NCBI GenBank assembly: GCA_009746045.1
Contig: RPFO01000175.1
Span: 1,956,898 to 2,020,897, forward strand
DNA: 64,000 nt
Source: Mesostigma viride
Lineage: Eukaryota; Streptophyta; Mesostigmatophyceae; Mesostigmatales; Mesostigmataceae
Reading direction: 5' to 3'
In this document: positions 6,250 through 39,039 of the stretch, piece after piece
Numbering within the stretch: position 1 is the first letter of the stretch
How the letters are laid out: each line of letters starts with the position of its first letter
Position numbers and translations under genes: made by a program
Notes under the pieces: model-generated
What the model was told of the DNA's origin: nothing
The model's input: the letters and a program-made list of their open reading frames with translations, nothing else
Database searches by the model: none

Positions 6250-8598
6250 TGTTACGTCGCGTAACAATTCGTTGTAGTTACGGACGTAAATTAGTTCCTT
6301 GGCCTCGGTTGTTCCTAGGTTTACGTGTAGTCCTAGCTGGGACATTATTGTCCTCGTAACAGTACTGTGGTATATTGGGTGCCTTTGGGCGCCGCGCCGC
6401 GTACTTTATTAGTGGTCCTTATTGTCCATCTTCCCAGTAAAAGTCCTAAATTTAGGACCAAGTGGAATTAAAAAATATATATGCAAACATTAAAATTTGA
6501 CCCTGGCATTCGTGCCCATGACAGATAACACACTTTTTTAGTTTCTATCAAAAACCTGGGGTCAAATAATTACATTTAGTGCATGAATGGGCCCTGCCAC
6601 CTGCCAGACCTCAAAGCGCGAATTTGGCCAAAATGTGGGTTTTAGGACCATTAGGACCAATTATTGTCAACGCATGACCATGCTATCCACACGGTCCCTT
6701 GAGCATCTTACAAGCGCTAGGGGACCCTACGAGGCCTTGGGATGGCGGGGCAGCGTATAACAAGGCCATACCCTGCTGTGGCTGCCTCTATATATACGCG
6801 TGATTAACGGTGTCACAGATGGTGCAGGTAATGCAATATAGGGTTGCATGGTTGCTGAGGTTGCCCGGCTTGAACATGGCCCACCCCTTGCGGTAAACTT
6901 TCTCAAAGCATATGCCAAACCTTCTTTGACATCACGGACATGCTGGCCACCACCCAGCGATGAAAAAACATTGCATTTGCATTGCAACTAACACATGAAT
7001 GCAGCCAAATCAAGTTACAAAACAACGTTGTGCTAACATGCAACGCTTTGTGAGCGAATTCAGGGTGCATGTAACACGTAAACCATACTGTATATACTGT
7101 CTGAGAACACCCTGAACAACTGCAGGCCATAGGACCATGGTTTATAACTAACACATGAGTAAAACTGCTCTTACGCATGTGTGTTTTAGCTGCAGCGGAC
7201 GACGAAGATAGAGACGTAAAAAATTGTATGACGTAAACCAACTATGTGTGACAGTTATGTGCACAGAGAGCGTCCCCTCTTTTTAGGCATAGCTGGCTGA
7301 CTCAAAACACCACGACAGCGTTGCCAGTTACACTCATGATCTAGGACAACCCGGCACTTACCTGCTACTTACGTCGCCTCATTCCAGATGGTTGCAAAAA
7401 AGTCGCTGAAATCCGCAGCGAGGTCAGCTTTCCGAGAGCTGAGCGCACCAAAGCTGGCCAACCGGTTCGACAATGATATAAACCACGCTTGAGCTGCGTT
7501 CTAGGTCCAAGAAATACCGAAAGTGAAGACCTATAAGGTGCGCTCGCTGCCCAGCCTGAACGTCCCTAAAACATGGTCGACAATGGAAATCGGGCAAGAA
7601 TATCAGGTCCCAGGCGCTCCCATGTGAAATACTCCGTTTCTAAACTCCAGACTATAGTAAAAATCGTCCAAAAAAATTTCCTGGCTTGATTCGCACCACC
7701 ATTGCTAATACACTAACATGTTTGTGCCAAAATCGACCCTCCGCGAGCAGGCGATCTGCGACCCATTTGTGTTGTGCCGCTGTGATACAGCGCTACACAT
7801 AAAAACTTGCGCAGAAAATATTCACAGCCTTTAAGCATAACTAACAACCTTTCGTTTTTGCTACTGGGCGCCCGAAATGATAAACGCACGTGAAAACGCC
7901 GGCCACGATTGTCAGGTCGCCATATCCACCTCACTTCATTCCCGCACCCACTTTTTCGCTCCAAAATCGGTTATATTTTTGGTCGAGGTACCTACTTTCC
8001 CGCCATTATACCCGGTACCCGGGTACGGAATCCGGGTACCATGTGCCGGTACCACGGGTCGGGTACATCATGCCGGGTACGGTCCACATGGGGTACGGTC
8101 CATATAGTGACCCCCCCCCCCGGTACCTCGGTTATAGTGACCACTAGGACGATTTAGGACAAAGTCCTAAATTTAGGACCGTGGGATGATTAACATTATC
8201 CTTTGGTAGAATGTAGTGGACCGGCGTGCATCTGTGCACCTGCCTGTGTTTCTGTGTTTCTGCAGGCGAGGGCCAGGTCGGCCCGAGCCTGTTGGACCGT
8301 TGGTGACCATTTATGCACGTTCCACTCCTTGTGTGGACACTCGGCGTGTGTTAAATGAATTAACACATATTAGCTTGGGTCACGGCAGTGTAGTTGTGTT
8401 TCCTTCCTCTATTCCTGGAGTAAACGGGTTTGGTTAAATGGCTTATGGCGTATTACAGTAGCACATATGTAAATGCATTGAGATCTGGATCGTCTCGTTC
8501 GTCTTTCGCTAGGGGTTTAACTAAAGGCGGCCTTACTAGTTTAGGTAGTATCAGGACAGGTAGAGGTAGAGGTGGCGGTAGAGGCTTGCGGCGTAACA
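6250..8598 (+). repeat. Gypsy-2 5' LTR, split by a 1.77-kb insertion
   Basis: Segments 6250-6422 and 8200-8598 together reproduce the 3' LTR at 29613-30182. The first 17 bases, TGTTACGTCGCGTAACA, form a small palindrome, and the LTR ends in CGTAACA, giving terminal inverted repeats. An open frame starting near 8430 in the LTR runs into the leader with an RG-rich segment (GRGRGGGRG), but its coding status is doubtful. Confidence 0.88.
6423..8195. mobile_element. 1.77-kb TIR element inserted in the Gypsy-2 5' LTR
   Basis: TTAT duplications (6419-6422 and 8196-8199) flank it, and removal restores the LTR exactly as in the 3' copy. Its ends are imperfect inverted repeats (TGTCCATCTTCCCA versus TGTTAATCATCCCA), each followed by the 16-bp perfect palindrome GTCCTAAATTTAGGAC. 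Near 8010-8115 it has a cluster of GGTACC-like repeats. No transposase is visible, so it is probably non-autonomous. The 4-bp A/T duplication and TGT start recall the element at 827-3450. Confidence 0.82.
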
Positions 8599-8599
8599 A

Positions 8600-8612
8600 T
8601 GGACTCGGAGGT
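8600..8612 (+). other. Candidate primer-binding site of Gypsy-2
   Basis: One base after the 5' LTR the sequence is TGGACTCGGAGG. It starts with TGG, as expected for pairing with a tRNA 3'-CCA end. The priming tRNA cannot be named from this. Confidence 0.5.
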
Positions 8613-10463
8613 AGTTTAGATAGAGAGCGAGACGACGATCCTCTGCAACATACGTCATTGAATCAACCCTTCCGCGGCTGGGAAAATGAAGACGACACCT
8701 ACTTGACAGGTAAAGGGCGGGTCGCCTGCGAGCTGGGGGGGTAGTGCTGCCCGATTCGGGACACGCCCTGCCTAGAAGATAGACCTGCTCGAAGCGGAAA
8801 ATCCTTTTTTAGATAGCTCCTTTTCCTCGTTTTGTTTTCCTGAGAAATGTTGCTTACTGTCGTAGAAAGGTGATGGTTTTGGTTCTACGGTAGAGAGACG
8901 ACTAGCGTCTCGTAGATTACACTTTTTCTGCATCTTGCCTGCTTTGTATTTAGACGACCCATCGCCGGACGCAGAATTCTTGAAACCGGATACTTACGAC
9001 CACCCAGTGATTGGCCATACGCGATACGCGTGTCACGGACGCGCGCTATGTCATCCGGGCGCCCACTATGCACAAGACCGGTGACGTGCGCAAGGAATTT
9101 GTCTTCTACGCATTTTCGACAAAGGCTAGTGACCGGGGGGGGACACTAGCACTTGCAGCATAAGAGCGGACGAAAGTGTACGTGCACGCGCGCCGGGCCA
9201 GGCACAGCTGGGCGCGCAGCACTGACTTGAGCGGACGGCAGCACAAGTGTGCAGCGTCGAGAGGATCATACGCGTGTTAGTGGACAGCTGGAGCTGAAGC
9301 TGTACTGCTGGACTTCAACAGCGCCGAGGCTATTGACAGGCCAGGTGTCTTTGTGGTGTAGAATAGCGGGTCAACGTTATGAGGACTGGACAGAAAATGG
9401 AAAAGGACAATTTGCGGTGCGGAGCCAGATCGCTGGAATGAATGCGAAATCGCTGGCAGCCCTAAAAAGGGATTTCTTCTAGAAAGGAACGATTAGACGC
9501 AATGTTTGCTGGGCCACTCACACGCAAGGTGTGAGCGTGCAGATTGTCTGAAGGATATTATGCTTCGACCTTGCTGGACGTGACTCAATGTCGGACATTC
9601 CCAGGGACAGAAATGCCGGAGCCTCTAGGAGATGAGATCGGCAACAGGGTAGCAATTTAGATTTGTCGGGATGCCTTCCTGCTTTTGTTGGCATGTGTGG
9701 TAGAAAGCCAGGACGGCAACTGGAATGCGGTTTCTATTCGCATGGTTCAGGCAGCAAGATAGTTTTGGCATTCCTGGCTGGACTGACAAGTGTGGCGTGT
9801 GTCATGCGTGTGGCATGACGAATGGTTTGGTTCATAGTCGAAGAGGACTCTCACGCAGCGTGTAGTCTCTTCGAGTCTCTCGTTAGTGGCCTTCGTGTTT
9901 CTCCCTTTCCTTGGGAGCAAGGCCGGTAGCATGTCATGGAGCGCTGCCTAACTGCGGGCTCGTGAGCATGGAGTGCATCGATATTGAGACTATCAACGTG
10001 TTGTAATTGTATTAACTTTCTCAATAAACTCCGCATGTGCGGCTTCATCATCAGACTGTGCAAAGTGTGTGTTTTGAAAGCATTATTCTATAGCAGGGGA
10101 GGCAATAAGGTGGTTATCAGGCACGAGGGACAGTTCCTTGTCCTCGGCTGAGAGCCCTCCTTTCTTTACTCGAAGAGACTACCCGGTAGTCTGCTTCCTT
10201 CTGTTCGAAGCCAAGACGTTGGCTTTAGTGTTTAGCAACCATCAGCAGTACAGGGAACGGCCTGGCTGACAGTTTGTAAAGGAAGTGTCTTGAGACAGAT
10301 TTTAAGAAAATAGAACTAGCCAGAATTTGCTGGCTCTTGTCTTTTTCTGGCAGGCTAGTCGAGTCGTTATCCTTGACACCTGTTATAAAGCCTTTGGTTG
10401 TTGCTTCTTCTCAGCGAAACCTAGGCTTGTTGGTTCTTGTTTTGCCCATCGGTCAGCTGGTGC
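8613..10463 (+). other. Gypsy-2 leader / Gypsy-1 upstream region, no gene recognised
   Basis: The junction between the Gypsy-2 leader and the Gypsy-1 insertion should lie here. I found no Gypsy-1 LTR that also appears downstream of 18,310. Short ORFs show no recognisable protein. Confidence 0.4.
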
Positions 10464-12272
10464 ATGCCACTGACGCGAGCGCAGACTCGAGCCATGGCAG
10501 ATGCAAATAGAGCAGATGCCGACACGTCCGCTCCGGGGTCGAATGGCGGGATTCCTCCCGCCGTACCCGCAGTGGGTGAGAGTCGCGACCAAGAAGCGCC
10601 GCTGAGTATGGTGGCGCTGTTCGCGCAGATGCAAGCGCAGATGCAGCAACAGTCGCAACAGTTGCAGCAGCAATTGGCGCTGCAGATGCGGGAAGTGACC
10701 GACAGATTGGTGGCCGTAGAGGGTCGTCATCTGCAGTCCACACCATGGGACGGGCAGGCATCGATGCCGGGCCCCAGTGGTGTTGCCGCGGAGCCGAGGG
10801 AGCGGGACCAGCCGCCAACCTCAGGTAATGCGGCGGGAAGGGCTTCGATGGAACCGGGGGTTTTGGCTGGGTCGCTAACCCAACACGACTTGCTTGGTGA
10901 GGCGGATGGTCAGCCACGGGGCGAGTATACGCTGGCGCCCAGGCGCCTGCCTTTCGATCAAGCGCGAGACGGATTGCACGAGGAGAACGGGGCAGGGCTG
11001 GCGCGCGCGATGGACCCACACAGGGGTGCACCAGGACGCATGCTGCCAGGCGGGGCCTCAATTCCGTTTGGGCGAGGCGGTGGGGCGCTGACCGGCGGGT
11101 CGACTGCACGGTGGTCAAGTGTGCCAATCGGGCGCATTCCGCCCATGGAGGACATAACCACGCCGCTGGCTTTCCGAGTACGGGAGGCAGCACGACCAAG
11201 CACGCTGGCGCAGGGACGCGCAGCTCAGCGACCGCCGGAGGATGCCGATGGGGTGCAGTACCCGCAAAGGGTGCGCCTCATACCGGAAGGCGCGAAGATG
11301 CCCACCCTACCACGGGTGGACATGCGCGAGAAGTTCTCCACAACCGGCAATCTGGCCACGCTGGCGCAGGCCTACAACGCGTACAAGTCATGGATTGATC
11401 TGCAATACATGACTACGCAAGGCGCTGTAATGCATGAGTTTGTGATGAACAACATGCATTTTTTCTTTCACGGCCTTACGCTGAGGCGAGTGGCTAGGCT
11501 GGTGGAGCAGTGGAGAGAGGTCTCGCTGTACACGCGTCACACGGACGTGTGGTTCGGCTTCGACGGGCGTGGCCAGCCCGACTATGACAACATCATGTAT
11601 GGTGTCGACCCTGCCGAGGAACTGTGGGGCCTCCTTCGCCAGGAATACCCGGTGGAGACCATCAAGGCAGAGCGTGAGTGGCGCAGTTTCAAGATAGCCG
11701 AGGGTGAAACCCCGGAGCAATCTTACGAGCGCCTCATGGAGTTCGCCGGCGAAGTGGAGGACTGGTCCGAAAAGCTGGCGTGTCAGAAATGGCTGCAAGC
11801 GCTAGGCTCCAAGGAGATGGAGCTGCCCACGCCGCCCAACGGCCAGCCGTGGCGATTGCGGTCACTGTGCATTGAGGTCAGGGCCATGATGCGACGACAC
11901 GCGCAAGGCCGGATCTCGGTAAGCACGGTGGTGGCCGAGCTGCAGGCCAAGGTCGACGCGCTGACCAAGGCCAAGTCGGGTGAGTCGTCTGCCACAAGAC
12001 AAGCGCGCCCGCAAGGCGGCCACGGTGCTAGCAGGAACCAAGGGGGGTCTCGCAACGCCTCATCGCATGATGCAACCCAGGGTAACGCCGCTGGCGGCAA
12101 CAAAGACGCTGCCGCCCCGACGCGAGCTGGGGGGGCACGTCCTCACAGACGGGTACTAGGACGGATGCGCGCAAATCGGGCTGCTTCCTTTGCGACAAGG
12201 ATGGGCACCTTAGTCGCGAGTGTCCAAGCCGCTGCACGAAGCCGCATGGGGCAGACACGAAGTGGCACCTGA
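10464..12272 (+). CDS. gag: Gypsy-1 gag polyprotein
   Basis: The protein forms the retrotransposon particle. From the first ATG at 10464 (the frame is open slightly further upstream but only from a TTG) it gives about 602 residues. A Gln-rich coiled-coil-like segment (MQAQMQQQSQQLQQQ) lies near residues 50-85. A long Pro/Gly/Arg-rich linker follows, then a capsid-like helical domain near residues 290-480 (WGLLRQEYP ... EREWRSFKIAEGETPEQSYERL). The expected nucleocapsid zinc knuckle, CFLCDKDGHLSREC, is not in this frame. It sits in the pol frame immediately after a G7 run at 12129-12135, so the last ~45 gag residues here are probably out-of-frame. The stop overlaps the next ATG as TGATG. Confidence 0.85.
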   Translation: MPLTRAQTRAMADANRADADTSAPGSNGGIPPAVPAVGESRDQEAPLSMVALFAQMQAQMQQQSQQLQQQLALQMREVTDRLVAVEGRHLQSTPWDGQASMPGPSGVAAEPRERDQPPTSGNAAGRASMEPGVLAGSLTQHDLLGEADGQPRGEYTLAPRRLPFDQARDGLHEENGAGLARAMDPHRGAPGRMLPGGASIPFGRGGGALTGGSTARWSSVPIGRIPPMEDITTPLAFRVREAARPSTLAQGRAAQRPPEDADGVQYPQRVRLIPEGAKMPTLPRVDMREKFSTTGNLATLAQAYNAYKSWIDLQYMTTQGAVMHEFVMNNMHFFFHGLTLRRVARLVEQWREVSLYTRHTDVWFGFDGRGQPDYDNIMYGVDPAEELWGLLRQEYPVETIKAEREWRSFKIAEGETPEQSYERLMEFAGEVEDWSEKLACQKWLQALGSKEMELPTPPNGQPWRLRSLCIEVRAMMRRHAQGRISVSTVVAELQAKVDALTKAKSGESSATRQARPQGGHGASRNQGGSRNASSHDATQGNAAGGNKDAAAPTRAGGARPHRRVLGRMRANRAASFATRMGTLVASVQAAARSRMGQTRSGT

Positions 12273-15200
12273 TGAACAAGTGTCCAGCCGCGGGCATCAA
12301 GACGGTCCACTTCGCCGAGATGGCGGGCAAGACCGACTCGATGGAAGCCCAGGTGGCTGCCATCAAGCATGGTGAGGAGGCGACGGCGCCCCCCAACCAA
12401 TTCGAGACGGTGTACCGGGAGGACCCATTCTGGGCGCCCATGCCGGGTGACGTCGAGATCAACGCTGCGGAGGCTACCAAAGGCAAGCAGGCACGCAGCC
12501 CGCTTTCTTTTCAGCAGGCACCCATGTTGCCTGCCGGGCAGTTGCCCGCGTCCTTTTCCATGCCGCTGGCTGGGGTGCAATCTGCTTTTGAGCATGCGAA
12601 CCCTGCTGGGCTGGAGCAGCGTAGGCGATTGGCGCCTGTGTACCCAATGCCGTTCATTGTGGACGTACCCATGTTTTCAGCACGGCAGGTGGTCGACACC
12701 TTCGGGCAGAAGGGGGTTGAGTGGCTGGGGTCGGTTGTGTCCGAGATCCAGTTGTTCGCAGATGGGCATGATGTGCGCACCTTGCGCAATTCTGAGTCCG
12801 TCACCTACGGGCGCCAGCCGGTAGAAGCCGCAGTGCCCGTGGTGCAAGCGGGAGTGGTCAGCACAAGTAGCCAGCAGCGCACTAGTGCAGTCCCCCAGGT
12901 TCCCACGGTGGTTCCATACCCCAATGGTGAGCCGTCCATGGCGTTCCAAGCAGTTGGAGCCTGTGGAGATGTATGGAGCGACATGGTGACATGTCCGTTG
13001 GTTGGCGCAGTCAAGCTTGATAGCGGTGCTCAGCCGCTAGTCATCAGCACGGACTTGGCCACCATGCTGAACCTGACCTACGAGAACGGTGGCTTAGTGG
13101 AAAGCCCCGTGTCTGTGTCAGGTTGGCAGGGTCCGGCTAGTAAGCCGTACGCTATGACGGCGGTTAAAGTCAACGTGATTTTCAATCCGTTGCGCGCCTC
13201 TAGCATGACCACCGTGTCCGCGTATGCGCTGGTGGTCAACAAGTGTGGATATTCCGCACTACTCGGGGTGGATGTCCTTGCTCGCGCCATGGTTCAGGTG
13301 GACTATAGGGCGGAGGAGGCATCTTACATCCCTGATTGGGATGGGGCTGGCCTGAAGCGGGCCAGCGTGCCGGTCTCATGCTTCAGTTCTTCAGCCGGGG
13401 CTGCACGCCTCAACCCTTCCGCGGCTGCGGGCGTGGTGGAGGTCAGCATGGTGGAGGTACGGGCGGCGGGCTCATCGGCGTGGGACAAGCATCGGACGGT
13501 GCTGCCCCAGCCAACGGCGAGCATTGCCAAGATGCGCACGCAGTGGTCGCTGGATGCTGTGACGTCCACGCGGCAGCTGGCTATGCGCAAGCGGGTAACT
13601 GAAGCCGTCATCACCATTCCTCAGATGGCCAGCCATGGCCTCACTTTGCTGCAACCGGGTGTCTCGGAGGCCCAAGGTAATTTTTCTGCTGCAATCTTAC
13701 CGCAGGCCCCTGATTTTGCCAAGGGTGCGGTAGTGTTGGAACTGTTTGCGGGGATCGGAGGGGGCATTGCAGGCTTTTTGGCCGCAGGCGGCGTGTGCCG
13801 TAAACTCATCGCGGTAGAGCCATCGCACAAGGCGCGTCAGGTGTACTTCAGTCACTGTGGCGTGTTGTCGCGAGAGTATCCCGCGCAGTTTCCGCCATCA
13901 GCATGGCGTGACCCGTTTGGGGAATGTCCTCAAGATATCCGAGCCATCGGTGAGGTGCAGGTGCAGCAGTTGTTGCGCAGGCATCATGCCATCGACTTGG
14001 TAATTGCGGGTTGGGAGTGCCAGGGCCTGAGCCAGGCAGGGCAAGGGCGGGGGCTAGCCGATCCGCGTAGCGCGCTGTTCTGGGAACTGTTGCGTGTGGT
14101 GGGACTGTTGCAGTCGCGTCAGCCCCATCCGCCTGCGTATCTGTTTGAGAACGTTGTGGCGGGTGACAGCCCACATCAGGCGGTGCGGGAGGACTGGGCT
14201 ACAATCGTGGCACTCCTGGGGGAGCCCATCGTGTGTGACAACGCAGGGCTGGGTGGGCTCACGCATCGTTTGCGTGCCTATTGGACCAACGTGGCGTGTG
14301 CGACCGATGTGCAGGCGGTCTTGGGGGCCGTAGCAAGGCAGCATCCGAGTGTGTCTGCGGAGGTAGCATTGCCTTCCCACCTAGTCACGCAGAAGGTGGA
14401 TAGCGAGGATCGCCCACCGTATGCACGCGTCAACCGGGTCGGGAGCCCCATGTGTGCACTGCCGACCCTGGTCAGTTACCAAGGGTCGACAGCATACCGT
14501 GATCGGGGTAAGGGTCTCGTTTGGGACACTACCACCGGTCTGTTGGTGCAGCCACCCGCAGAATTTCGTGAGGCCAGCATGGGTTTTCATGTCGGGGCCT
14601 CGGCGCTGCCGGGCGTGCTCGAGAGTGAGCGCTGGTCTTTGATAGGCCAGGCTATGTCGGTGTTGCAGGTCGGGTATGTGCTGCTTGCATCGGTTGCCGT
14701 GCGCCAGTCTGGGGGGGCGTCCCCAGCCAATCCGCCTCAGCAGGTTGAGGCGCGCGCAGCCAAACTGAAGCGCCCTGCAGCGACGGGGACTTCATCAGCA
14801 TGGGGGTGGCGTCTGCGACAGGTGTGGACTATCATTCTCATGACCGCCCTGCTGACCAGCACCGTGCTGGCCGGCGAGCCCACGCTGCATCGGGTAATAC
14901 ACCGTGCGGCACGCGAGGCTCCGGCGGTGGGTGTCACACCAGGCGTGGCAGCCTTTTCCTTGTTCCACGACGATGCGGCTAGGGCGCCGCATCTTGAGGC
15001 ACATGCGGTAGCTGTGGGTGATCCCGCGGATACGCACCCCTGGGCTATTGGCGAACACCTTTCTGATGCGCAGCGCTCAGCCATGCTAAAGTGGCTAGGC
15101 ACTGCAAGGGGGGCCTTCGCTTTCACAAGTGATGAACTGGGGTGTTTCAATGGTGGGACCATGCGTGTTCCATTGGACACTGACACCCCTTTGTTCCGAC

Positions 15201-15673
15201 GCCAGCATCGCCTGAGTCAGGCCGAGTTGGATTTTGTAGCCGAGCAATGCAAGGAGTTAGAGGATGCCGGTATCATCAGGCAATCTTCCTCCAGCTATGC
15301 CGCTGCCGTTGTCGTTGCGCCCAAGAAGGACGCTATCACCGGGGCATGGACGGGTATGCGCATGGCCACCGATCTGCGGTTGCTGAATGCACACACACCC
15401 GTGGACCGTTACCCCATGCCACGTGTGGATGATGTCCTGGATAAGATATCTCCTCATGTGAAGTTTGTGTCCTCGCTGGACCTGCGTAGCGGCTTTCATC
15501 AGATCGCAGTTGCGCCGGAGGATCAGCGGAAGCTTGCATTCTGGGGGGCGGCAATTTGTATGAGTGGGTGCGCATGCCCTTTGGGCACCGCAACGCTAGT
15601 GCTGTTTTCCAACGAGCTATGGACAAAGTGCTTGCAGGTCTTCCTTTCGCCGCTTGTTACATTGATGATGTAA
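12272..15673 (+). CDS. pol: Gypsy-1 pol, first part: protease, C5 DNA methyltransferase, start of RT
   Basis: This is frame 2, 1133 residues from the ATG at 12272. The frame is open upstream and includes the gag-type zinc knuckle CFLCDKDGHLSREC at about 12,182-12,223, so frameshifting from gag is more likely than a new start. Residue ~247 begins a retropepsin-like LDSGAQPLVIS, with GVDVLARA further on. Residues ~486-806 are a cytosine-5 DNA methyltransferase. A hydrophobic stretch (WTIILMTALLTSTVLAG) lies near 852-869. Reverse transcriptase begins near 985 (IIRQSSSSYAAAVVVAPKK) and reaches SLDLRSGFHQIAVAPEDQ. The RT breaks at a G6 run (15543-15548) and continues in frame 1. Residues after the break are spurious. 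Confidence 0.85.
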   Translation: MNKCPAAGIKTVHFAEMAGKTDSMEAQVAAIKHGEEATAPPNQFETVYREDPFWAPMPGDVEINAAEATKGKQARSPLSFQQAPMLPAGQLPASFSMPLAGVQSAFEHANPAGLEQRRRLAPVYPMPFIVDVPMFSARQVVDTFGQKGVEWLGSVVSEIQLFADGHDVRTLRNSESVTYGRQPVEAAVPVVQAGVVSTSSQQRTSAVPQVPTVVPYPNGEPSMAFQAVGACGDVWSDMVTCPLVGAVKLDSGAQPLVISTDLATMLNLTYENGGLVESPVSVSGWQGPASKPYAMTAVKVNVIFNPLRASSMTTVSAYALVVNKCGYSALLGVDVLARAMVQVDYRAEEASYIPDWDGAGLKRASVPVSCFSSSAGAARLNPSAAAGVVEVSMVEVRAAGSSAWDKHRTVLPQPTASIAKMRTQWSLDAVTSTRQLAMRKRVTEAVITIPQMASHGLTLLQPGVSEAQGNFSAAILPQAPDFAKGAVVLELFAGIGGGIAGFLAAGGVCRKLIAVEPSHKARQVYFSHCGVLSREYPAQFPPSAWRDPFGECPQDIRAIGEVQVQQLLRRHHAIDLVIAGWECQGLSQAGQGRGLADPRSALFWELLRVVGLLQSRQPHPPAYLFENVVAGDSPHQAVREDWATIVALLGEPIVCDNAGLGGLTHRLRAYWTNVACATDVQAVLGAVARQHPSVSAEVALPSHLVTQKVDSEDRPPYARVNRVGSPMCALPTLVSYQGSTAYRDRGKGLVWDTTTGLLVQPPAEFREASMGFHVGASALPGVLESERWSLIGQAMSVLQVGYVLLASVAVRQSGGASPANPPQQVEARAAKLKRPAATGTSSAWGWRLRQVWTIILMTALLTSTVLAGEPTLHRVIHRAAREAPAVGVTPGVAAFSLFHDDAARAPHLEAHAVAVGDPADTHPWAIGEHLSDAQRSAMLKWLGTARGAFAFTSDELGCFNGGTMRVPLDTDTPLFRRQHRLSQAELDFVAEQCKELEDAGIIRQSSSSYAAAVVVAPKKDAITGAWTGMRMATDLRLLNAHTPVDRYPMPRVDDVLDKISPHVKFVSSLDLRSGFHQIAVAPEDQRKLAFWGAAICMSGCACPLGTATLVLFSNELWTKCLQVFLSPLVTLMM
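13726..14692 (+). other. C5 cytosine DNA methyltransferase domain inside Gypsy-1 pol
   Basis: Visible motifs in canonical order: I (LELFAGIGGG, AdoMet binding, residues ~489-498), the acidic V-E-P at the end of strand 2 (IAVEPSHKA), IV (AGWECQGLSQAG, catalytic Cys583), VI (LFENV, Glu626), VIII (THRLRAYWTN, ~664) and X (IGQAMSVLQVGYVLLAS, ~791). Between VIII and X lies a ~110-residue target-recognition-like region. C5 methyltransferases transfer a methyl group from AdoMet to cytosine in DNA through the motif IV cysteine. Canonical motif IV is PCQ; here Glu replaces Pro before Cys. The domain is in one uninterrupted frame with the protease, so it looks like an integral part of the polyprotein. 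Activity is inferred only. Confidence 0.88.
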
Positions 15674-18309
15674 TCGTCTTTAGCGCGACATTTGAGGAGC
15701 ACCTGGCGCACTTGGAGCAGGTTCGCTTGGCTCTCGAGGAGCATAATATGCGGCTGCACCCTGAGAAGTGCAAGTTCGCCCAGCGGACCCTCTCATTCCT
15801 TGGTCATCAGATTGTGCCGGGTGGCCGGACGCCTGATGCCGCCAAGGTCGAATCCATTGTGCAGGCCGCCGTACCCACGGATGTCTCAGGGGTGCGGGCG
15901 TATTTGGGTTTGGCTGGCTATTACCGAGGTTACATTGAGAACTTCAGCAGCAAGGTGAAGCCCTTGACCGAGTTACTCAAGAAGGGGTGCGTGTGGGCGT
16001 GGGGTCCCGCACAGCAACGCGCCATCGAGACAATCAAGCAGGAGCTCACGTCGGCCCCGATTCTGCGCGCCCCTGACTATGCTTTGCCGTTTGTGTTATA
16101 TACCGACTGGTCCAAGGTAGGACTGGGTGCGGTCTTGGCGCAAAAGGATGGTGATGGGCGCGAGCACGTTATTGCTTATGCTAGTCGCAGCAACAACCCA
16201 GCGGAGAGCCGGTATTCTTCCTATGAGGGGGAGGCACTGGCTGTGGTGTGGGCCATCAAGCACTTTCGCCCGTATTTAGTTGGGCGCGTGTTTACTCTGG
16301 TGACAGACCACCAGCCGCTTCAGTGGCTAATGACCAACACCAACCTGACGGGTAAGCTCGCCCGATGGGCCATGATTATCCAGGAGTACCACATGACCAT
16401 TGTGCATCGGGCCGGCAAGGACCATGTCAACGCCGATGTGCTATCCCGATACGCCATGCCTACCACTGTTGACCACACTGGAGCCCGGGCCATGGGTGCC
16501 GAGGGCTCGTCGGGTTCTGTGGTCTTTGTGAACGCTGCTGGGTATGCGGCCGACGATGAGGAGGAGGCGTGGTGGCGCAGTGTCGAGTACTCTGTGGCGG
16601 ACTTCGGCATCAGCGACGACCCGGTGCGGCCGTCGCCATTCACGCCATCCAAAGCTGTGTGCGCTATGGAAGAGGGTAGGTCTCTGTCCTTTGACATTGA
16701 TCCTTCTCTGCAGCAGCTGATCGCTGTGCAGGCTCTCTTAGCGCGTAGCTCTCTTGCTGATTGCTACACCGCTGATATCTGGCTAGATGGTCGAGTTTTG
16801 GAGCAAGTGCAGGGTGCTGTCTTGACTCCTACTCCAGTCGATTGGACTCCTGCTCAGAAGGCGACGGAGTTGAACAGGGTGCAGCACAGGGCTGCAACCT
16901 ATGGTTGGGAAGATGGGGTTTTGTACAAGCTGTTGGGCAAGCGTAGGGTGGTCGTCCCACCGCCTGACAAGCGCGTTGCTATAGTGCAGGCGTACCACGA
17001 GCGGTATGGTCACTTGGGTGGCAATCGCACGCTCAGCCTCGTACGGACCAGCTATTGGTGGAATAACATGCGACACACAGTGGCCCAGGTAGTGGCCAGC
17101 TGTGTCCCGTGTGCTCGAACCAAGGCTAACTTTAGCGCAGATCATGGTGCCAAGGAGCTGATGTCGCTTCCCATCAAGGGCTTGTTTTATCGCTGGCACG
17201 TCGATCTGTGCGGGCCGTTTCAGGAGAGCCCTGACGGCAACCTCTATGTCATGGTATGCGTGGAGAGCTTTAGCAAATGGGTTGAGTTGATCCCCATTGC
17301 TGACAAGCATGCCGCTACCACAGCGAAGCATTTTGCAGACATCATCACCAGGTTTGGGGCTCCCGCGGAGGTAGTCACGGACCAGGGTGGTGAGTTCAGG
17401 GGTGAGTTCCAGGAGTTGCTGGATGGATGTCTTATTGATCACCGTCGCACTTCTCGGGAGCATCCTCAGGCCAATGGTTTGGCTGAGAGATTGGTGCAGA
17501 CCGTCAAGCAGGCGCTGCGCAAGTGGAGCCTGCAGGTGCCGGAGTCGGCCAGGTGGGATCGCGAGTTGGCATGGATTGCCATGGGTTATCGCATGTCTCC
17601 CCAGGAGTCTCTCGCTACCTTCTCCCCGTATTTCCTTCTGTTCGGGCGTAATCCTCTTTTGCCTACGGAGGCACAGGTTGCGCACCCCGAACCCATGGCC
17701 TTCGACAACGCTCAGCAATTTTTGGTTGAGGTGCTGGCCAGGGCAGAGACTTTTAAGAAGGTCATGCCCATCGCGATGAACAACTTGTTCATTGCTCAGC
17801 ACAGGGACTCCCTGCGTTACGCTCAGCGCCGGGGGGGCGCATACATGGCTCGCCAGCTGCGGTTTAGGCCAGGGCAGTATGTTTTCCTGCGCACTCAGCT
17901 GAAGCACACTTTGGATGTGGAGGCGGGGCCCACCATTTTGCGCATTGTGGCTATCAAACCATCGGGAGTGGCAATTTTGGAGGGCGCCGACGGGAGCCGT
18001 ACGACAGACAACCTCAGCAATCTCAGTCCCTGCTCACTGCCCAATTTGGTCCACGACCTCCAACCGCACACATCTCGCCGAGTCAAGGACGCCCAGTGTC
18101 AGGTTTGTCACCGGGTCGATCAGGCGGAGTCCATGTTATTGTGTGATCAGTGTAACTGTGGTTGGCACATGCAGTGCTTGCAGCCCGTGGTCACCAGCAT
18201 TCCGGAGGGGGATTGGTTTTGTCCAGTGTGCACCGCTGCGCAGTTTACCTCCCGCAGCTTGACTGCGGTCACCGCTGCCCTTGTCTTGGTACGATCGCTG
18301 TCTTCGTGA
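15556..18309 (+). CDS. pol: Gypsy-1 pol, second part: RT, RNase H, integrase, PHD finger
   Basis: This is frame 1, 917 residues, continuing the RT interrupted at the G6 run. It shows YEWVRMPFG, the catalytic YIDD (residues 35-38), and GYYRGYIENFS of the RT connection. RNase H follows at ~180-300 (LYTDWSKVGLGAVL, YEGEALAVVWA, TDHQPL). The integrase zinc domain HHCC spans ~481-520. The DDE core has Asp in HVDLCGPF (~549), Asp in VTDQGGEF (~607) and Glu in LAERL (~644). The C-terminus is a PHD finger at ~848-892, where chromoviruses would have a chromodomain. Apart from the frameshift no inactivating change is obvious, suggesting a fairly young copy. It ends at TGA 18307-18309. Confidence 0.9.
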   Translation: MYEWVRMPFGHRNASAVFQRAMDKVLAGLPFAACYIDDVIVFSATFEEHLAHLEQVRLALEEHNMRLHPEKCKFAQRTLSFLGHQIVPGGRTPDAAKVESIVQAAVPTDVSGVRAYLGLAGYYRGYIENFSSKVKPLTELLKKGCVWAWGPAQQRAIETIKQELTSAPILRAPDYALPFVLYTDWSKVGLGAVLAQKDGDGREHVIAYASRSNNPAESRYSSYEGEALAVVWAIKHFRPYLVGRVFTLVTDHQPLQWLMTNTNLTGKLARWAMIIQEYHMTIVHRAGKDHVNADVLSRYAMPTTVDHTGARAMGAEGSSGSVVFVNAAGYAADDEEEAWWRSVEYSVADFGISDDPVRPSPFTPSKAVCAMEEGRSLSFDIDPSLQQLIAVQALLARSSLADCYTADIWLDGRVLEQVQGAVLTPTPVDWTPAQKATELNRVQHRAATYGWEDGVLYKLLGKRRVVVPPPDKRVAIVQAYHERYGHLGGNRTLSLVRTSYWWNNMRHTVAQVVASCVPCARTKANFSADHGAKELMSLPIKGLFYRWHVDLCGPFQESPDGNLYVMVCVESFSKWVELIPIADKHAATTAKHFADIITRFGAPAEVVTDQGGEFRGEFQELLDGCLIDHRRTSREHPQANGLAERLVQTVKQALRKWSLQVPESARWDRELAWIAMGYRMSPQESLATFSPYFLLFGRNPLLPTEAQVAHPEPMAFDNAQQFLVEVLARAETFKKVMPIAMNNLFIAQHRDSLRYAQRRGGAYMARQLRFRPGQYVFLRTQLKHTLDVEAGPTILRIVAIKPSGVAILEGADGSRTTDNLSNLSPCSLPNLVHDLQPHTSRRVKDAQCQVCHRVDQAESMLLCDQCNCGWHMQCLQPVVTSIPEGDWFCPVCTAAQFTSRSLTAVTAALVLVRSLSS
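18098..18232 (+). other. PHD finger at the Gypsy-1 integrase C-terminus
   Basis: The segment has the C4HC3 pattern: CQVC, then CDQC, then W-H-M-Q-C, then CPVC, with the typical aromatic GDWFCP before the last pair. PHD fingers commonly bind histone H3 tails. Here it may direct integration to particular chromatin, in the role a chromodomain plays in chromoviruses. That role is inferred. Confidence 0.9.
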
Positions 18310-18845
18310 TGGGGCCGGTCGCCAGCGAGGGGGGGAATCATGGGACAGGTCCTCGCCCACCCCACAGGGCATGCAGTTAAGGCAGGCACATCAGCTCAGC
18401 TCATTTGGGTTTTACCAAATTAAGCTGAGTGGCCAGCCGCCATGGTGGCGCCGGAGATTGTGGCACGCAGACGCGACACGCGTCGTACGCGGCCCCAGGT
18501 GTATAATGTATAATACGCGGTGTATAATGTATTATACGCTGATCGTACGCTAACTGTTGAAAACCCCTTTTTTGGCAGGCTTTTGAGGGTTTTTCAACAT
18601 TCTGAGCAATCAAGCATGGTCTGCTGGTGTTTTTGCCATACCTTTTGCCTATACCTGACATATATAGCATGACCTTGGCATTGCCATCACTACCTAAATA
18701 CAAGCATAGTTTCTAACGGTCTAACTTGATAGTTTCTCTTCAAAATCGAGACAACATGCAACTAAGTATCAATACCAGTATCAATTCACAACTCACTGGA
18801 AAGGATAATAGATAATGAATTTGTAGAACTCAAGATATGCATGCA
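18310..18845. other. Region after Gypsy-1 pol: polypurine tract, then AT-rich non-coding DNA
   Basis: A purine-rich tract follows the stop. Near 18,475-18,550 there is a cluster of TACGC/GTATAATG-like repeats resembling one at 19,610-19,745. No gene is seen. Confidence 0.4.
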
Positions 18846-19364
18846 CTATACATTGCCCCGAGGTGTCGATGACATTGAAGGGCGTCGATGGCATTGAAAG
18901 GCGCAAATGAATGCCTTGCACAGCTCCTCGTCCAGCTGCTCTTTGCTGAGCCCATAAGGTGCGGGCAAATTACCGTCGGTGGATTGGCCCTTTGATGATC
19001 CGCTTGGCCCAGCCGCCCCAGCAGCGCGCCCCGAGGTGTTGCTGGCATGAGCGGACACCCAGTTAGAGGCGTCGGTTTCTACAACGTCTGCAAGCCTGCC
19101 TTTAAGTGCCGCCCGCACATCAGCCTGCTTCTTGGCGTCACTAGTCGCCTTCCTCTTCCTGGTATTGCTTTCCTTCTCCGCCTGCTCGACCAGCAGCCTG
19201 TAACGGAGTACTCCATCATCCACGTAGTAGTTATCTGTCTGCTGCCCATTCTTGAGGATGCGCTCTTTGCTAATGTATGTCCAGACAGTTTCGGATGTGG
19301 CCTCTTCTTCATCGGGCCGCACATCATCATCGTGTTCCATTGACTCCTCATTCGTGTCAGCCAT
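18846..19364 (-). CDS. Hypothetical acidic/basic protein ORF between the two gypsy bodies
   Basis: This is a 172-residue minus-strand frame from the ATG at 19362-19364 (MADTNEESMEHDDDV). The N-terminus is acidic. A middle segment (YVDDGVLRYRLLVEQAEKES) may be helical, followed by a basic KRKATSDAKKQADVR stretch and a Gly/Ser-rich tail. I recognise no family. It is antisense to the surrounding retroelements and lies between the Gypsy-1 end and the first Gypsy-2 ORF, so it probably belongs to another inserted element or is a remnant exon. A chance ORF is possible. Confidence 0.35.
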   Translation of the reverse strand: MADTNEESMEHDDDVRPDEEEATSETVWTYISKERILKNGQQTDNYYVDDGVLRYRLLVEQAEKESNTRKRKATSDAKKQADVRAALKGRLADVVETDASNWVSAHASNTSGRAAGAAGPSGSSKGQSTDGNLPAPYGLSKEQLDEELCKAFICAFQCHRRPSMSSTPRGNV

Positions 19365-19885
19365 GCCTGAATGTCGATATGCTACGATAGAGGTGCCAGA
19401 CGACCACGACGTCGCTGGCACACCTTATCACCTTCTGGATGATGAATCTTCAGCCTTCCCGCCTTCACATTCCCGCCTTCACAAGTCACAGCGCTTTTAG
19501 CTTTAGTGCATTATACACTAGCTAGCTCATCACGCAATTATTTGTTCCTACTACAGGTCGGCGCGCCGCAGTCTAGGCAAGCAAATTCACCCACCTCGTA
19601 AGCCAAAAATATGCCAAAAATACGCGAAAATACGCAAAAATGCGCAAAAATACGCGTTGCGTATGAAAGTACCCCATTTTCGTACGCGCCGCTTGCGTAT
19701 CGCGCATAATACGCTAAATACGGCGTATAATACGGCGTATGGCCAATCACTGCGACCACCTGGCGCTGGAAACCTCGTCCCTGCGTGCGTCGTCAATCTG
19801 GTTCGGTTTCAGACACCCGAGATAAGTCGACTCCTACCCCTTCCACTCCTATCGTGACTACTCAAGAACAACAAGGTGCGTTACC

Positions 19886-20278
19886 ATGAGCCAGCGGCGA
19901 TCTTTTACTGCTCCTTCCCATTCTTCTAGCGATAATAGTCTAGCTAAATATTACGTAGTGATTACGCCTCAATGGTCCTCCATTTTCCTTTCTTGGTCCG
20001 ACGCTAGGAAGATCGTTCAGAATCGTGTATACAACGTAATTAGGTATAAGAAATTTATGTCCTTCGAAGAAGCTCAGCAGTTCCTTATAGATCATAGCCA
20101 ATCAGATTTAGGCCTGCACGTACGCTCTATTCCTCATGGTCGTCCTCCCGTAGAAGCTCTAGTCTTTGCTACCCCTCCTTCTTCTCCCCCTAAACGGGCT
20201 GCATCTGCATCTGCCTCAGATACTCCTCTCACTTTGGAGTTTGGTTCCCTATCCATTACTGTTGTTAAAAAGGATTGA
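19886..20278 (+). CDS. Gypsy-2 ORF0: RNase H1 hybrid-binding / viroplasmin-like domain protein
   Basis: This is 130 residues from ATG 19886, 92 bp upstream of gag. Residues ~21-68 (KYYVVITPQWSSIFLSWSDA ... FMSFEEAQQFL) resemble the N-terminal domain of eukaryotic RNase H1 and caulimovirus viroplasmin: YYVV, then a W-S-D/E segment, then a Y/F-x-S-x-EEA-xxF helix. That domain binds RNA/DNA hybrids or double-stranded RNA. A Ser/Pro/Ala-rich tail follows. Its position as the first ORF of the retrotransposon suggests a role in reverse transcription or packaging. No catalytic RNase H residues are present. Function is inferred from the fold signature only. Confidence 0.6.
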   Translation: MSQRRSFTAPSHSSSDNSLAKYYVVITPQWSSIFLSWSDARKIVQNRVYNVIRYKKFMSFEEAQQFLIDHSQSDLGLHVRSIPHGRPPVEALVFATPPSSPPKRAASASASDTPLTLEFGSLSITVVKKD

Positions 20279-20369
20279 TTTTAATTTTGTCCTTGTTTCA
20301 GACCTTCAAGGTTTTTCCTTTTTCCTTTGTTGCTTTCATCTAGATTCCTATTCCTTTACTTAATTAAAG

Positions 20370-20408
20370 ATGGATCCAGTGGGTGGAGATATGTCGCCTA
20401 TACCTACC

Positions 20409-20450
<42 letters not shown>

Positions 20451-22133
20451 AATAATAACACTAACAATACTCGTGGTAACCGACGGGACTCCTTGGAAAC
20501 GGTACACCATCTCACTCCTCAAGGTATTCTGCGTACCTCACCTCCTTCTCCTGTTGCTGGTGGTCGCCGTCGTCCCTCAATTACCCCACCTACCTATGAA
20601 CAACGTATTTCACAAGTCAGATTTAGTGATGAACCCTCTTTTGCTGTGAACCAGGCCCCTGCCCCTTCTGCAAACTTGGCTCACCCCTCCAGCAGGTCCT
20701 CACTAACTAACAATGCTTCTAGGCCTCCTTCCCACCCTGTGCCTTCCATGCCTGCTTTTAACACGGGTCGTACTTCTGCCCCTGTCGGCCCTTCTGGGCG
20801 CCCTAGTGCAGTTCCCTTTTACCCACCTGCTTCCTGGTCCTACCCTGAGACGGCCTATGAGGCTGCCCAGGTCCCTACCCGTGTGGCTGATTTAGAAGTT
20901 AATAATGATTTCAGTACCATGCCCCTAGATGATAGGAATTATGATCATTTTGCCTACTCCTCTCTTCGTGAGCAATATACTGTTCCCTTCTCCTATGGGC
21001 ACCATCCTGACACGGTGGCTCCCTCTAGGCCCCTACCCAAAACTTTTCCTATCCCTTCCTTCTATCCCGCTTATGTAGCAGTGGAAGATAGTGGCCCTAT
21101 GGGAAAAACTGATTCTTCTAATCCCCCTAAGCCTCCTGCTCTTCCCCTCTTTGCCAACCTTCCTAAGCTGGATGTCAAGTCTACCCCTCAACAGTTCTTC
21201 ACTTTCATTATGTTGCTCACCCAGAACACAGAGTCTTGGCAGAACCACAATAGGTGGCGCCTCTCTGATGCTGTACTAGTTCCTCATTATCTTACTACCT
21301 GCATTACTCCTGAGCTTGCTAACCTCATCCAGTGTGAGTCTCTTGCCTCTCATGCCTACCCCAACTCTGTAGCAGAATTGTTTAAGCGTTTAGAGAACCA
21401 TTTAGTCCCTCCCGATGCAGATTGGCAGGATAGATTAGCCTTTGGTACCTTGCAGCAGGGTACCAAATCCTTCAAAGAATATATGAAAGAGTTTGATGCC
21501 CAGATGGTACGAATTAGGGATTTGTCGGGTGCAGAAGTACGTGCCCGCTTCCTTCAGGGCCTCAGTAGACCCTTATTGCGTGAAGTCAAGCGCCAGTTCT
21601 CTGCCTACCGTTTTACTGACCTGCCCCTCAAGCATGTGCGCCAGCATCTTTTACGAGTAGCAGATTTCTTCTCCACGCCTTCTCTTCCTACCCGTTCCCG
21701 TATTAATAATATTAGTCTTACCCCTGAGGAGGAGAACTCCTATGTAGAAGAATTAGATATTTGTGTGACTGACCTTTCAGCTCTGGATGTCTCTCATATC
21801 ACCTGCTATCATTGTAAGGAAGTAGGTCATCTTAAACGTGAGTGCCCCAAGTTCCTTTCGGGTGCTCCCCCTCATCCCGACGCTCGCCCTCCTCGTACCC
21901 CTCAGCGTGCTCCTATTCGTCCCACTTCAGGACGCGTTCCTTCAGCTACCCCTAGTAGGCTGAATGCTGTGCAGACAGGATCCCCAGGGTTCCCCTATGA
22001 TAATCAGGCTCCCGCACCCTCTTCAATCCCTCGTGACCCTCCAGCAGTGGCTTTTCCGCCAGGGTCTTCTTCGGGGTTAGTTCCTATGGATTTGGGGGGG
22101 AGGGGGAACAGTAGGCCTGTCAGCCGGGGGTAA
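20370..22133 (+). CDS. gag: Gypsy-2 gag polyprotein
   Basis: The protein is 587 residues from ATG 20370. It starts with a poly-Asn tract encoded by (AAT)n (residues ~11-24, extending as Asn/Thr to ~31), then a Pro/Ser-rich region. A Ty3-type capsid domain lies near 255-450 (TPQQFFTFIMLLTQN, LAFGTLQQGTKSFKEYMKEF, ARFLQGLSRPLLREV). A CCHC zinc knuckle, CYHCKEVGHLKREC, is at 479-492. The end is Pro-rich. It closes just after a G7 run (22094-22100). The pol frame is open across this overlap in a different frame, so pol is probably expressed by frameshifting or the run carries an indel. Confidence 0.9.
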
Positions 22134-22176
22134 CCTGGACAGGTCCTTAGATAGTACCCCAGATAATAATTTTTGC

Positions 22177-23874
22177 TTGCCTGTTTTTATAACCTCTGTA
22201 GGAGCTGAATCATCCCTACCACTACGTGTGCGTCCTCTTATGTTCTTGAATGGTGGCTTAACCGTCCCTCATACTGTTGTAGACCCCTTCTTGCATGCTG
22301 ATGAACTCTTGAATGTCTCTGTGTTAGTGGATAGCGGTGCGGCTAGCTCCTTTGTGAGCGAGGCCCTAGTTAGGCGTTTAGGACTAGTCCCTACCCCTCA
22401 CACAAAAACTGTCACTGTCCATTATGCTGACGGTCGCACCAGTCATTCCCCGGGTACGGTGTCCCTTCCCCTGGTCATACAAGGACGTACGGTCAACCTG
22501 ACGGCCACTATAGGCCCTATCACTACAGCTGATGTATTACTAGGATTAGATTGGCACCAGGATAATAAGATTACTATTAATTATGATACTATGGTCATTT
22601 GGTTTCCAGATAGCTCTTACTGGGTACCGGAACGTCATTATAGATTAGAAAATTTATCCTTGGTAGATATTACTCCTCCTACACCTGTTGATCCTCCTGT
22701 GAGACCTATACCTGAAGTATTAATGTCCAATGACGAATTGCGATCTGAACTAAAGGAATATGGATACCTATTATGTATGTTCCTTCAGTTAGAAGTACAA
22801 GAGATACCTATCACTAATAATAGTGTGGATATAGATGTAAATACAGTGGATACAATAGGAGTGGGATTTACTGAAAATGAAATAGTAAGATACATGGCTG
22901 TGATAGATTCCTCAAAAGTATTTGAAGAAAAGACTCCTTCTTATCCTCCTCCTCGTTCTGTTTTACACCGTGTAGTTATCAAGGACGGTGCAGTTCCTAC
23001 GCACTCTCCGATGTATAGAATGGGCCCTACCGAATTAAAGGAACTAAAACAGATTTTAGTGTCACTATTAGAAGCAGGATTGATAGAGCCTAGTAACTCC
23101 CCCTACTCCGCTGGTGTCCTGTTAGTTCCTAAGCCAAATGGCAAGTTTCGCCTAGTTACTGATTATAGGAAGTTAAACGATATTACTGTGAAGTCTAAAT
23201 ACCCTCTACCTCGTATTGATGATATATTTAATAAGGTTAAAGGTTCTACCTGTTTCACAGTACTAGATTGTGCGGATGGTTTTTGGCAACTACGTATAGC
23301 TCCTGAGGATTGCCACAAAACCGCCTTTGCTACCCCTTTTGGGCATTACCAGTTTAGAGTAGCGGCTATGGGACTCTGTAACTCTCCTGCCTCTTTCCAA
23401 ATGTTAATGAATGAAGTGCTTAGACCTGTTATGGGAAATTCTCACCTTCCTCAAGTGTCCTCTGATTTAAAGGATCCTTCCTTCTCCTCTGTTTCTTTAT
23501 CTGAGCATGACCGTTCTTGTGCTCAAGCTTACTTAGATGATATCCTTATTTATTCTCCTGATTTTGAAACGCACCTACGTGATTTAAAGAAAGTATTAGA
23601 AATCATGGCTGAAAATTCTTTATGGGCGCGCCGTGCTAAAGTTCGCTCTGGTAGGAGTGTCCCATTTTTAGGGCACGTTCTGTCAGATGCCGGGGTTGCT
23701 ACCGACCCGGATAAAACTAAGTCAATTCAGGAATGGCCTACCCCTACCGACGTTAAAGGTGTACGTAGTTTTCTAGGAATTGCTTCTTACTATAGGCGTT
23801 TTATCCCGCGTTTCGCAACTATAGCAGCCCTATTAATCATTATTAAAGAAGGATATCCCCTTTGTTTGGAGTAG
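22177..23874 (+). CDS. pol: Gypsy-2 pol, first part: protease and reverse transcriptase
   Basis: The frame 1 reading begins at a TTG in the track sense but is open upstream into the gag overlap, so there is no true ATG. Aspartic protease: SVLVDSGAASSFVSEALV, followed by VLLGLDW. RT: LVPKPNGKFRLVTDYRKLND, FTVLDCADGFWQLRIAPED, FGHYQFRVAAMGLCNSPASFQ, catalytic YLDD (AYLDDILIYS), FLGHVLSDAG and GIASYYRRFIPRF. A ~22-residue insertion lies between the LRPV and AYLDD blocks. The frame breaks near 23,840-23,852 and continues as RNase H in frame 2. Confidence 0.9.
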   Translation: MPVFITSVGAESSLPLRVRPLMFLNGGLTVPHTVVDPFLHADELLNVSVLVDSGAASSFVSEALVRRLGLVPTPHTKTVTVHYADGRTSHSPGTVSLPLVIQGRTVNLTATIGPITTADVLLGLDWHQDNKITINYDTMVIWFPDSSYWVPERHYRLENLSLVDITPPTPVDPPVRPIPEVLMSNDELRSELKEYGYLLCMFLQLEVQEIPITNNSVDIDVNTVDTIGVGFTENEIVRYMAVIDSSKVFEEKTPSYPPPRSVLHRVVIKDGAVPTHSPMYRMGPTELKELKQILVSLLEAGLIEPSNSPYSAGVLLVPKPNGKFRLVTDYRKLNDITVKSKYPLPRIDDIFNKVKGSTCFTVLDCADGFWQLRIAPEDCHKTAFATPFGHYQFRVAAMGLCNSPASFQMLMNEVLRPVMGNSHLPQVSSDLKDPSFSSVSLSEHDRSCAQAYLDDILIYSPDFETHLRDLKKVLEIMAENSLWARRAKVRSGRSVPFLGHVLSDAGVATDPDKTKSIQEWPTPTDVKGVRSFLGIASYYRRFIPRFATIAALLIIIKEGYPLCLE

Positions 23875-29597: not shown

Positions 29598-29612
29598 GTG
29601 GGGGGGAAGGTG
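29598..29612 (+). other. Gypsy-2 polypurine tract
   Basis: A purine-rich stretch, GTGGGGGGGAAGG, directly abuts the 3' LTR start TGTTACG, as expected for the plus-strand primer of an LTR retrotransposon. Confidence 0.8.
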
Positions 29613-38660: not shown

Positions 38661-39038
38661 TATAATGACATCAAATGAACTCAGTTGGGCCTGGAACTTT
38701 GAACATGTTATAAACACATTCCATGCAGCATGCCCACAAAGTCTCAGGCTGGTTGGATCACAAAGTGGTGACAGATGCTAGCATAAATACCCCCAAAATG
38801 CAGTTTTTCATGGTTTTCCAAGGGTTTCATCACACATATGCATATATAATGACACCAAATGAACTCAGTTGGGCGTGGAACTTTGCATATGTTCTAAACA
38901 TATCCCATGCAGCATGCCCACAAAGTTTCAGGCTGGTTGGATCACAAAGTGGTGACAGATGCTAGCATAAATACCACAAAAATGCAGTTTTTCATGGTTT
39001 TTCAAGGGTTTCATCACACATTTGCATATATAATGACA
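38661..39038. repeat. 184-bp tandem repeat (two full units plus start of a third)
   Basis: Units begin TATAATGACA at 38,661, 38,845 and 39,029, a period of 184 bp. The third unit is split by LINE-B and resumes at 43,615. Confidence 0.85.
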
Positions 39039-39039
39039 C

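Follow-up and report, generated by a model that had tools for sequence, protein, structure and literature searches.

A Ty3/Gypsy retrotransposon family of Mesostigma viride with a DNMT3-like methyltransferase domain in Pol, split direct repeats and target site duplications

Retrotransposons can carry DNA methyltransferases, as reported for KnitGypsy-Dnmt3 of Klebsormidium nitens, a Gypsy element with a DNMT3-type domain in its Pol (de Mendoza et al., 2018; PMC5890265), and the statement in the initial annotation of this locus that retrotransposons had captured such enzymes is borne out by that paper. For KnitGypsy-Dnmt3, a Ka/Ks under 0.2 and selection are reported, while the expressed K. nitens domain gave no methylation activity in yeast, a result called inconclusive by its authors; the element copies are methylated in CHH and CHG contexts and characterised as silent, and for the DNMTs of SymbioDIRS CG methylation is shown (all PMC5890265). 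DIRS1-like elements are described as using a circle intermediate and as leaving no target site duplication (TSD) (PMC3266345); they carry a tyrosine recombinase.

Here we describe a methyltransferase-bearing Gypsy element in the window, the whole 64,000-nucleotide stretch of M. viride contig RPFO01000175.1 that was analysed. The core idea of a Gypsy element with a methyltransferase in Pol is not new, as the Pol order of the K. nitens element was published in 2018. Most deserving of attention are the end structure with the circle that it implies and a second position of the methyltransferase in elements of other green algae. The element brings along the kind of enzyme by which transposons are usually silenced, and, with many near-identical copies in a culturable alga, the question of why can be put to the test.

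The methyltransferase domain and its place in Pol

The element occupies 9031-18478 of the window, with its coding parts and motifs on the plus strand, between the two copies of the 4-bp TSD CGCG (left 9027..9030, right 18479-18482). ORF1 (10425..12272), gag by its position, had no match in the Pfam search. Pol follows in two frames, of which the first (12086..15673) holds a zinc knuckle, a protease-like stretch, the methyltransferase and the start of the reverse transcriptase (RT), and the second (15490..18309) the end of RT, RNase H (about 16000-16389, by Pfam), an integrase with H2C2 and rve (about 16957-17466, by Pfam) and, 3' of the integrase, a PHD finger (18097..18231, by Pfam and solved relatives). 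The zinc knuckle and two protease matches to the DSGA stretch upstream of the methyltransferase stay under the Pfam cut-off, as does RVT_1 in the first frame, which reaches 72.6 bits in the second. RT, RNase H and then an integrase with H2C2 and rve is the Ty3/Gypsy order; in the acidic triad of the integrase, as read by eye, 34 residues separate the second D from the E. Membership of the DIRS/PAT tyrosine-recombinase elements was rejected, since an rve integrase and 4-bp TSDs are present and a Pfam search of the three ORFs with an E limit of 0.1 yields no tyrosine recombinase. Over 12086-12272, where Pol overlaps ORF1 in the -1 frame, seven consecutive G form a possible frameshift site.

A complete C5 cytosine methyltransferase domain within the Gypsy Pol frame, between protease and RT, is confirmed (335 amino acids, 13688..14692; PF00145 on frame 12086-15673 with E 3.1e-11 and 43.7 bits, cut-off 22). 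Its motifs, which we take to be I (LELFAGIG, 13736-13759), IV (Cys at 14018-14020), VI (Glu at 14147-14149), VIII (THRLRAYWTN, 14261-14290) and X (14633-14665), stand in canonical order with the catalytic Cys and Glu, just as the initial annotation had read them. The uninterrupted frame that it had also claimed is real for the domain, which is open over 13688-14692, but does not extend to the whole Pol, which in the window copy is broken inside RT, where frame 12086-15673 stops and 15490-18309 carries on. Similarly, the motif IV Cys is present, but the motif reads GWECQ and not PCQ.

In C5 methyltransferases, the Pro-Cys of motif IV is highly conserved, although the nucleophile is the Cys and not the Pro. 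The window domain lacks this dipeptide, the alignment placing Glu-Cys at its position, so that the label 'DNMT3-like' covers sequence profile and fold, not activity or strict membership. GWECQ is common to the window copy and the diverged copies L030 and L032, and among 59 aligned sequences the residue before the Cys is Glu in 11 and Ser in 5, while the motif IV Cys is kept in 58, the motif VI Glu in 54 and the first Arg of motif VIII in 57. The best profile matches are vertebrate DNMT3A, DNMT3B and DNMT3C, and the AlphaFold2 model built on 59 sequences (pLDDT 95.7; used in place of an earlier model from 10 sequences with pLDDT 60.2, which was set aside) finds its best fold matches in DNMT3A/3B. 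By sequence profile and predicted fold the domain classifies as DNMT3-like, at an identity of about 18-24% to the vertebrate DNMT3A/3B catalytic domains that are its top matches and with Glu for Pro in motif IV. A scan of viral contigs gave 19 loci at 26-38% identity.

The nearest relatives of known structure to the PHD finger come from BAZ2B, Lid, BAZ2A and CHD4, whose PHD fingers are readers of unmodified H3K4; the ADD domain of DNMT3 likewise reads unmodified H3K4. That a single Pol should combine a putative reader with a methyltransferase writer is at most suggestive.

Copies, selection and relatives

The M. viride genome holds 127 PF00145 matches of all kinds (Pfam search). Twenty copies, those in the score group of the window in this search, were fetched; 17 are open over the domain at 98.8-100% amino acid identity (L026 over residues 3-335), and three are damaged, L017 by a frameshift and L027 and L028 by a cut at residue 170. 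A query with the window domain gave 517 candidates, the best 120 of which were scored (98 at the top score, 22 at the next) and are all open across the domain, in a sample that best-only scoring biases to intact copies. Among the 98 top-scoring copies, an open frame of 2074 amino acids occurs in 39, one of 1042 in 21 and one of 1195 in 10, the window copy among these last; certain broken forms thus appear to have been amplified as well. The family is young and very abundant, and its near-identical copies may be partly homogenised in the polished long-read assembly. The initial annotation had considered that the domain might sit in the window copy only, which is rejected, as other copies of the family carry it open (17/20 fetched; all of the best 120 of 517); nor is it a recent host-gene insertion limited to that copy, since two further families, L030/L031 and L032, hold whole open domains.

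Several copies depart from the common form. L010 is a short-form copy that lacks the equivalent of window 17006-18333 (integrase end and PHD finger) and has a 1042-amino-acid frame, and a non-autonomous version of this kind may have spread, as the 21 copies with that frame length would fit. L017, L021, L023 and L024 form a subfamily about 99% like the window in A, pol and B and with no BLAST match to it over about 10105-12187, which spans the leader and the greater part of ORF1; an exchange of gag may lie behind this. The two best matches in the protein search are EukProt proteins labelled jgi/Mesvir1, one of which is identical to the sister family L030 in 220/222 residues. At L001-L008 and other places, PF00145 frames of roughly 300-390 amino acids occur in identical-score groups on many contigs; L001-L008 give no tblastn match to the element methyltransferase, and frames of this type possibly belong to another mobile or viral element. 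The open methyltransferase frames of L040 and L041 (2065 and 1059 amino acids) group apart from the element domains and are, at a guess, CMT/DNMT1-like.

Selection was assessed by Nei-Gojobori counting on diverged copies with open domains, namely the window, L030 and L031 (one family) and L032 (another), the latter three being 64.8-73.4% identical to the window. Comparisons between families give a pN of 0.182-0.269 and a pS of 0.729-0.781, with dS saturated or undefined (window against L030, L031 and L032: pN 0.18-0.24, pS 0.74-0.78). Low pN next to saturated pS points to purifying selection during the life of the families, and these counts support such selection on the methyltransferase domain. 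Close pairs (window-L026, ratio 0.82 on 12 changes; L030-L031, ratio 0.41 on 9 changes) behave as expected of copies drifting after insertion. L033-L038, also diverged, are either disrupted or match the domain in part. The earlier argument that the intact frame speaks for selection is thus upheld in its conclusion by the comparison between families, but not in its reasoning, the intact frame of one copy being weak evidence because the family is so young. In M. viride DNA, 5mC is reported with CG as the most abundant context (PMC6947507). Transitions among the copies, counted against the window copy only and not independent, number 146 in CpG context and 161 elsewhere, with 2915 of 9448 sites in CpG context, an excess of only about twofold.

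A search with the second Pol part returned 431 proteins, and 20 of the best 120 contain a methyltransferase. Among these best 120, five have it before RT as in the window (P0095, P0105 of K. nitens, P0119, P0129 and P0131), nine between RNase H and integrase (P0100, P0101, P0102, P0104, P0106, P0107, P0111, P0114 and P0120; P0111 is labelled jgi/Chrzof1, taken as Chromochloris zofingiensis) and four directly before the integrase (P0135, P0137 of Volvox reticuliferus, P0141 and P0154), while P0136 and P0155 of Tetrabaena contain it in partial proteins that were assigned to neither position. Eleven starts were read among the rows in which no methyltransferase was found, all too near RT to reveal an upstream domain. 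In P0105, the methyltransferase lies at 277-566 and the RT-integrase core begins at 844; P0055 of K. nitens also has the domain upstream of RT, whose start was seen by eye, and the window domain matches it at 33% identity over 45% of the query.

Both trees were built without host DNMT3. For the RT-integrase tree, 68 of the best 120 proteins and the window passed the filters and nine short ones were dropped, leaving 60 rows, eight of them flagged for odd composition. The window and P0105 fall in a 30-row branch (91/89) within a 49-row clade (100/99), and the chlorophyte-type elements with the methyltransferase before the integrase form one clade of 16 rows (100/100), in three of which the domain was not found. 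For the methyltransferase tree, 64 rows passed the coverage filters; removal of 24, namely P0155 and metagenome rows from a single group, left 40, in which P0067 and L040 were flagged as long branches. Of these, 32 rows, for part of which an element location is shown, are split 100/100 from the other 8. The two Pol-position types stand on separate branches of this tree with weak support (92/79, 75/77). The domain may either have moved within Pol or been captured twice. The second DNMT position in chlorophyte-type elements suggests more than one origin or relocation of the Gypsy-DNMT pairing among green algae, a wider occurrence than the published charophyte case.

Element ends and surroundings

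Conventional LTRs were sought and rejected: 8000-20500 contains no suitable direct repeats of at least 20 nt, a comparison of 8590-10600 with 18000-20500 yields no LTR pair of the element, and the LTR pair that does emerge from the self-comparison of the window belongs to an enclosing element. Full copies run A1-ORFs-polypurine tract-B1-GC-A2-B2, an arrangement of split direct repeats. In the window, A1 (TGTCACGG...CTTTA, 1138 bp) lies at 9031..10168 and is directly followed by a candidate primer-binding-like site, CTCGAAGAGACTAC (10169..10182); the polypurine tract GAGGGGGGGA (18327..18336) precedes the 142-bp repeat B (ATCATGGG...GACA, 18337..18478), where this copy stops, without GC-A2-B2.

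Perfect 4-bp TSDs flank 8/8 full copies checked (L009 CATA, L011 ACAT, L013 GCCT, L017 CAGG, L021 GGTG, L022 GGTT, L023 GACA, L024 ACTT) and 3/3 short copies of the form A-ORFs-B (window CGCG, L016 AACC, L010 GAAC), i.e. 11/11 copies with both ends covered, outside tandems and C133 excepted. The GC spacer is present in all 11 rows with A after B, L014 and L029 showing the same single joint, and the A2|B2 joint is clean in 8/9 pieces and slightly changed in L058. B1 equals B2 in L013 and L024, with A1 and A2 identical at 99.4 and 99.7%, respectively. L012 lies in a tandem and off this scheme, and C133 (L049, L014, L029) reads B-GC-A-ORFs-B-GC-A without a TSD. End forms are given here for all but eight (L015, L018, L019, L020, L025-L028) of 21 copies.

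The sequence directly after A1, CTCGAAGAGACTA(C), has its reverse complement of 13-14 nt within A in 5/5 copies examined, 306 nt upstream of the end of A in one subfamily and 417-424 nt in the other. In the window these are the 14 nt at 9862..9875, the proposed RNA 5' end and self-primer, and the RNA fold predicted for 9862-10190 (z -2.9) pairs them with the primer-like site. In Tf1 of fission yeast the primer site has its complement further upstream in the RNA itself, and the self-complement, by analogy, suggests Tf1-like self-priming. The A2|B2 joint, which is what an LTR-LTR circle would leave, suggests a circle cut by the DDE integrase.

The surroundings are themselves nested. The element sits inside a stretch with hAT-like ends (9005-19752; ends CAGTGATTGGCC...GGCCAATCACTG, 8-bp TSD CGACCACC), whose frame 18846-19421 has no Pfam match and which in turn is nested in an outer LTR element (6250-30182, 5-bp TSD ACGGC). 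The LTRs of the latter, at 6250-8598 (interrupted at 6423-8195 by some 1.77 kb of inserted DNA) and 29611-30182, are 100% and 99.75% identical over two matching pieces, and it also encloses a chromodomain Gypsy (20364-26238), just upstream of whose gag an ORF at 19826-20278 encodes PF01693, the Cauli_VI / RNase H1 N-terminal domain. Further along, a LINE-like RT frame at 39037-43481 has a RING finger in an overlapping upstream frame, and a guanylate cyclase catalytic domain (PF00211) on the minus strand at 62981-63535 is perhaps part of a host gene.

Proposed life cycle, rival readings and known systems

With moderate confidence, we consider the element a young, high-copy streptophyte-alga Ty3/Gypsy of the KnitGypsy-Dnmt3 kind, whose methyltransferase would mark its own cDNA, whose reverse transcription would be self-primed and whose integration would be circle-based. 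The methyltransferase would be cut from Pol by the protease, travel with the cDNA and methylate it, most likely at CG, before or at integration, and new copies would arrive already marked and be tolerated by the host. Since the primer site follows A and the polypurine tract precedes B1, self-primed reverse transcription would produce LTRs of the composition B-GC-A, the A2|B2 joint being the end of one LTR joined to the start of the other in a circle. Cutting of the palindrome GACA-GC-TGTC by the DDE integrase, with loss of two bases, would give the outer ends TGTC/GACA. Opening a two-LTR circle at one palindrome would yield the full form A-ORFs-B-GC-A-B; the short form A-ORFs-B of the window would come from a circle with a single LTR or from a linear molecule in which each palindrome is cut, and C133 would by its look be the uncut linear product. 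Against the self-marking part of this reading count the Glu of motif IV, the lack of methylation by the K. nitens domain in yeast, although its authors call that inconclusive, and the CpG excess of only about twofold; the deviating ends of C133 and L012 and a possible homogenisation of copies in the assembly count against the rest. Only tentatively do we go further and propose that the two-LTR circle is the normal precursor, with its LTR-LTR joint (A2|B2) kept inside full copies, the att palindrome moved into U3, a DNMT3-like writer and a PHD reader in Pol and, among related green-algal elements, acquisition of the writer at two Pol positions. Circular DNA is a dead end in retroviruses; if the circle model is true, an integrase-type element uses this kind of DNA.

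That no circle is involved, the full form arising by template switching or similar in reverse transcription and the short copies as B1 x B2 recombinants, is a possibility to be taken seriously, if at somewhat less than even chances. Recombination could occur between the direct repeats B1 and B2 (142 bp) or A1 and A2 (about 1.1 kb), with the TSDs surviving either way, and the short copies could equally stem from B1 x B2 recombination after insertion; yet the A2|B2 joint found in every full copy looked at requires that ends be joined at some stage, and LTR boundaries at these places are indicated by the polypurine tract that precedes B1 and the primer-like site that follows A1.

The two remaining alternatives concern the enzyme. 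A methyltransferase without a self-silencing role, which protects the element DNA from host marks or competes with them, or acts jointly with the PHD finger in marking insertion sites, seems unlikely to us: the BAZ2B/Lid/BAZ2A-like finger behind the integrase, of a type that reads unmodified H3K4 like the DNMT3 ADD, would suit such targeting, but the K. nitens copies with their CHH and CHG methylation are described as silent (PMC5890265). Still less probable is that the domain is now carried along as a passenger or serves the polyprotein in a non-enzymatic way, for instance in nucleic-acid binding, with catalysis lost through the Pro to Glu change in motif IV. GWECQ in the window, L030 and L032 and the 11 Glu and 5 Ser among the 59 aligned sequences would agree with this, whereas the retention of the motif IV Cys (58/59), the motif VI Glu (54/59) and the first motif VIII Arg (57/59) and a pN far under pS across the domain speak against it.

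In the open-licence PMC literature we found no evident account of DNMT-Gypsy elements in Mesostigma or chlorophytes, nor of circle integration by an integrase-type element. Not found in print there either are split-repeat ends with TSDs and an A2|B2 joint, the 14-nt self-complement, a PHD finger after the integrase and a methyltransferase between RNase H and integrase. The primer-like site of the window element, with its complement further upstream in the RNA, recalls Tf1; the ends of Tf1 are conventional LTRs, and to our knowledge it carries no DNMT. Split direct repeats A1-B1-A2-B2 like those of the window family are described for PAT and Kangaroo, which encode a tyrosine recombinase (PMC4157794), whereas the window element has an rve integrase and makes TSDs. 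SymbioDIRS-Dnmt3 likewise combines a DNMT3-type domain in Pol with paired repeats A and B, but again has a tyrosine recombinase (PMC5890265) where the window element has an rve integrase and 4-bp TSDs. The main text of the latter paper does not mention Mesostigma, PHD, split or chlorophyte. The most similar known system is KnitGypsy-Dnmt3, which lives in a different host: both elements have an intronless DNMT3-type domain in a Gypsy Pol, in the window between protease and RT, as is typical of the KnitGypsy-Dnmt3 type, and in P0105 of K. nitens equally upstream of RT, and the DIRS-like repeat arrangement, found in the window family as A1-ORFs-B1-GC-A2-B2, is ascribed to KnitGypsy-Dnmt3 in a figure legend (PMC5890265).
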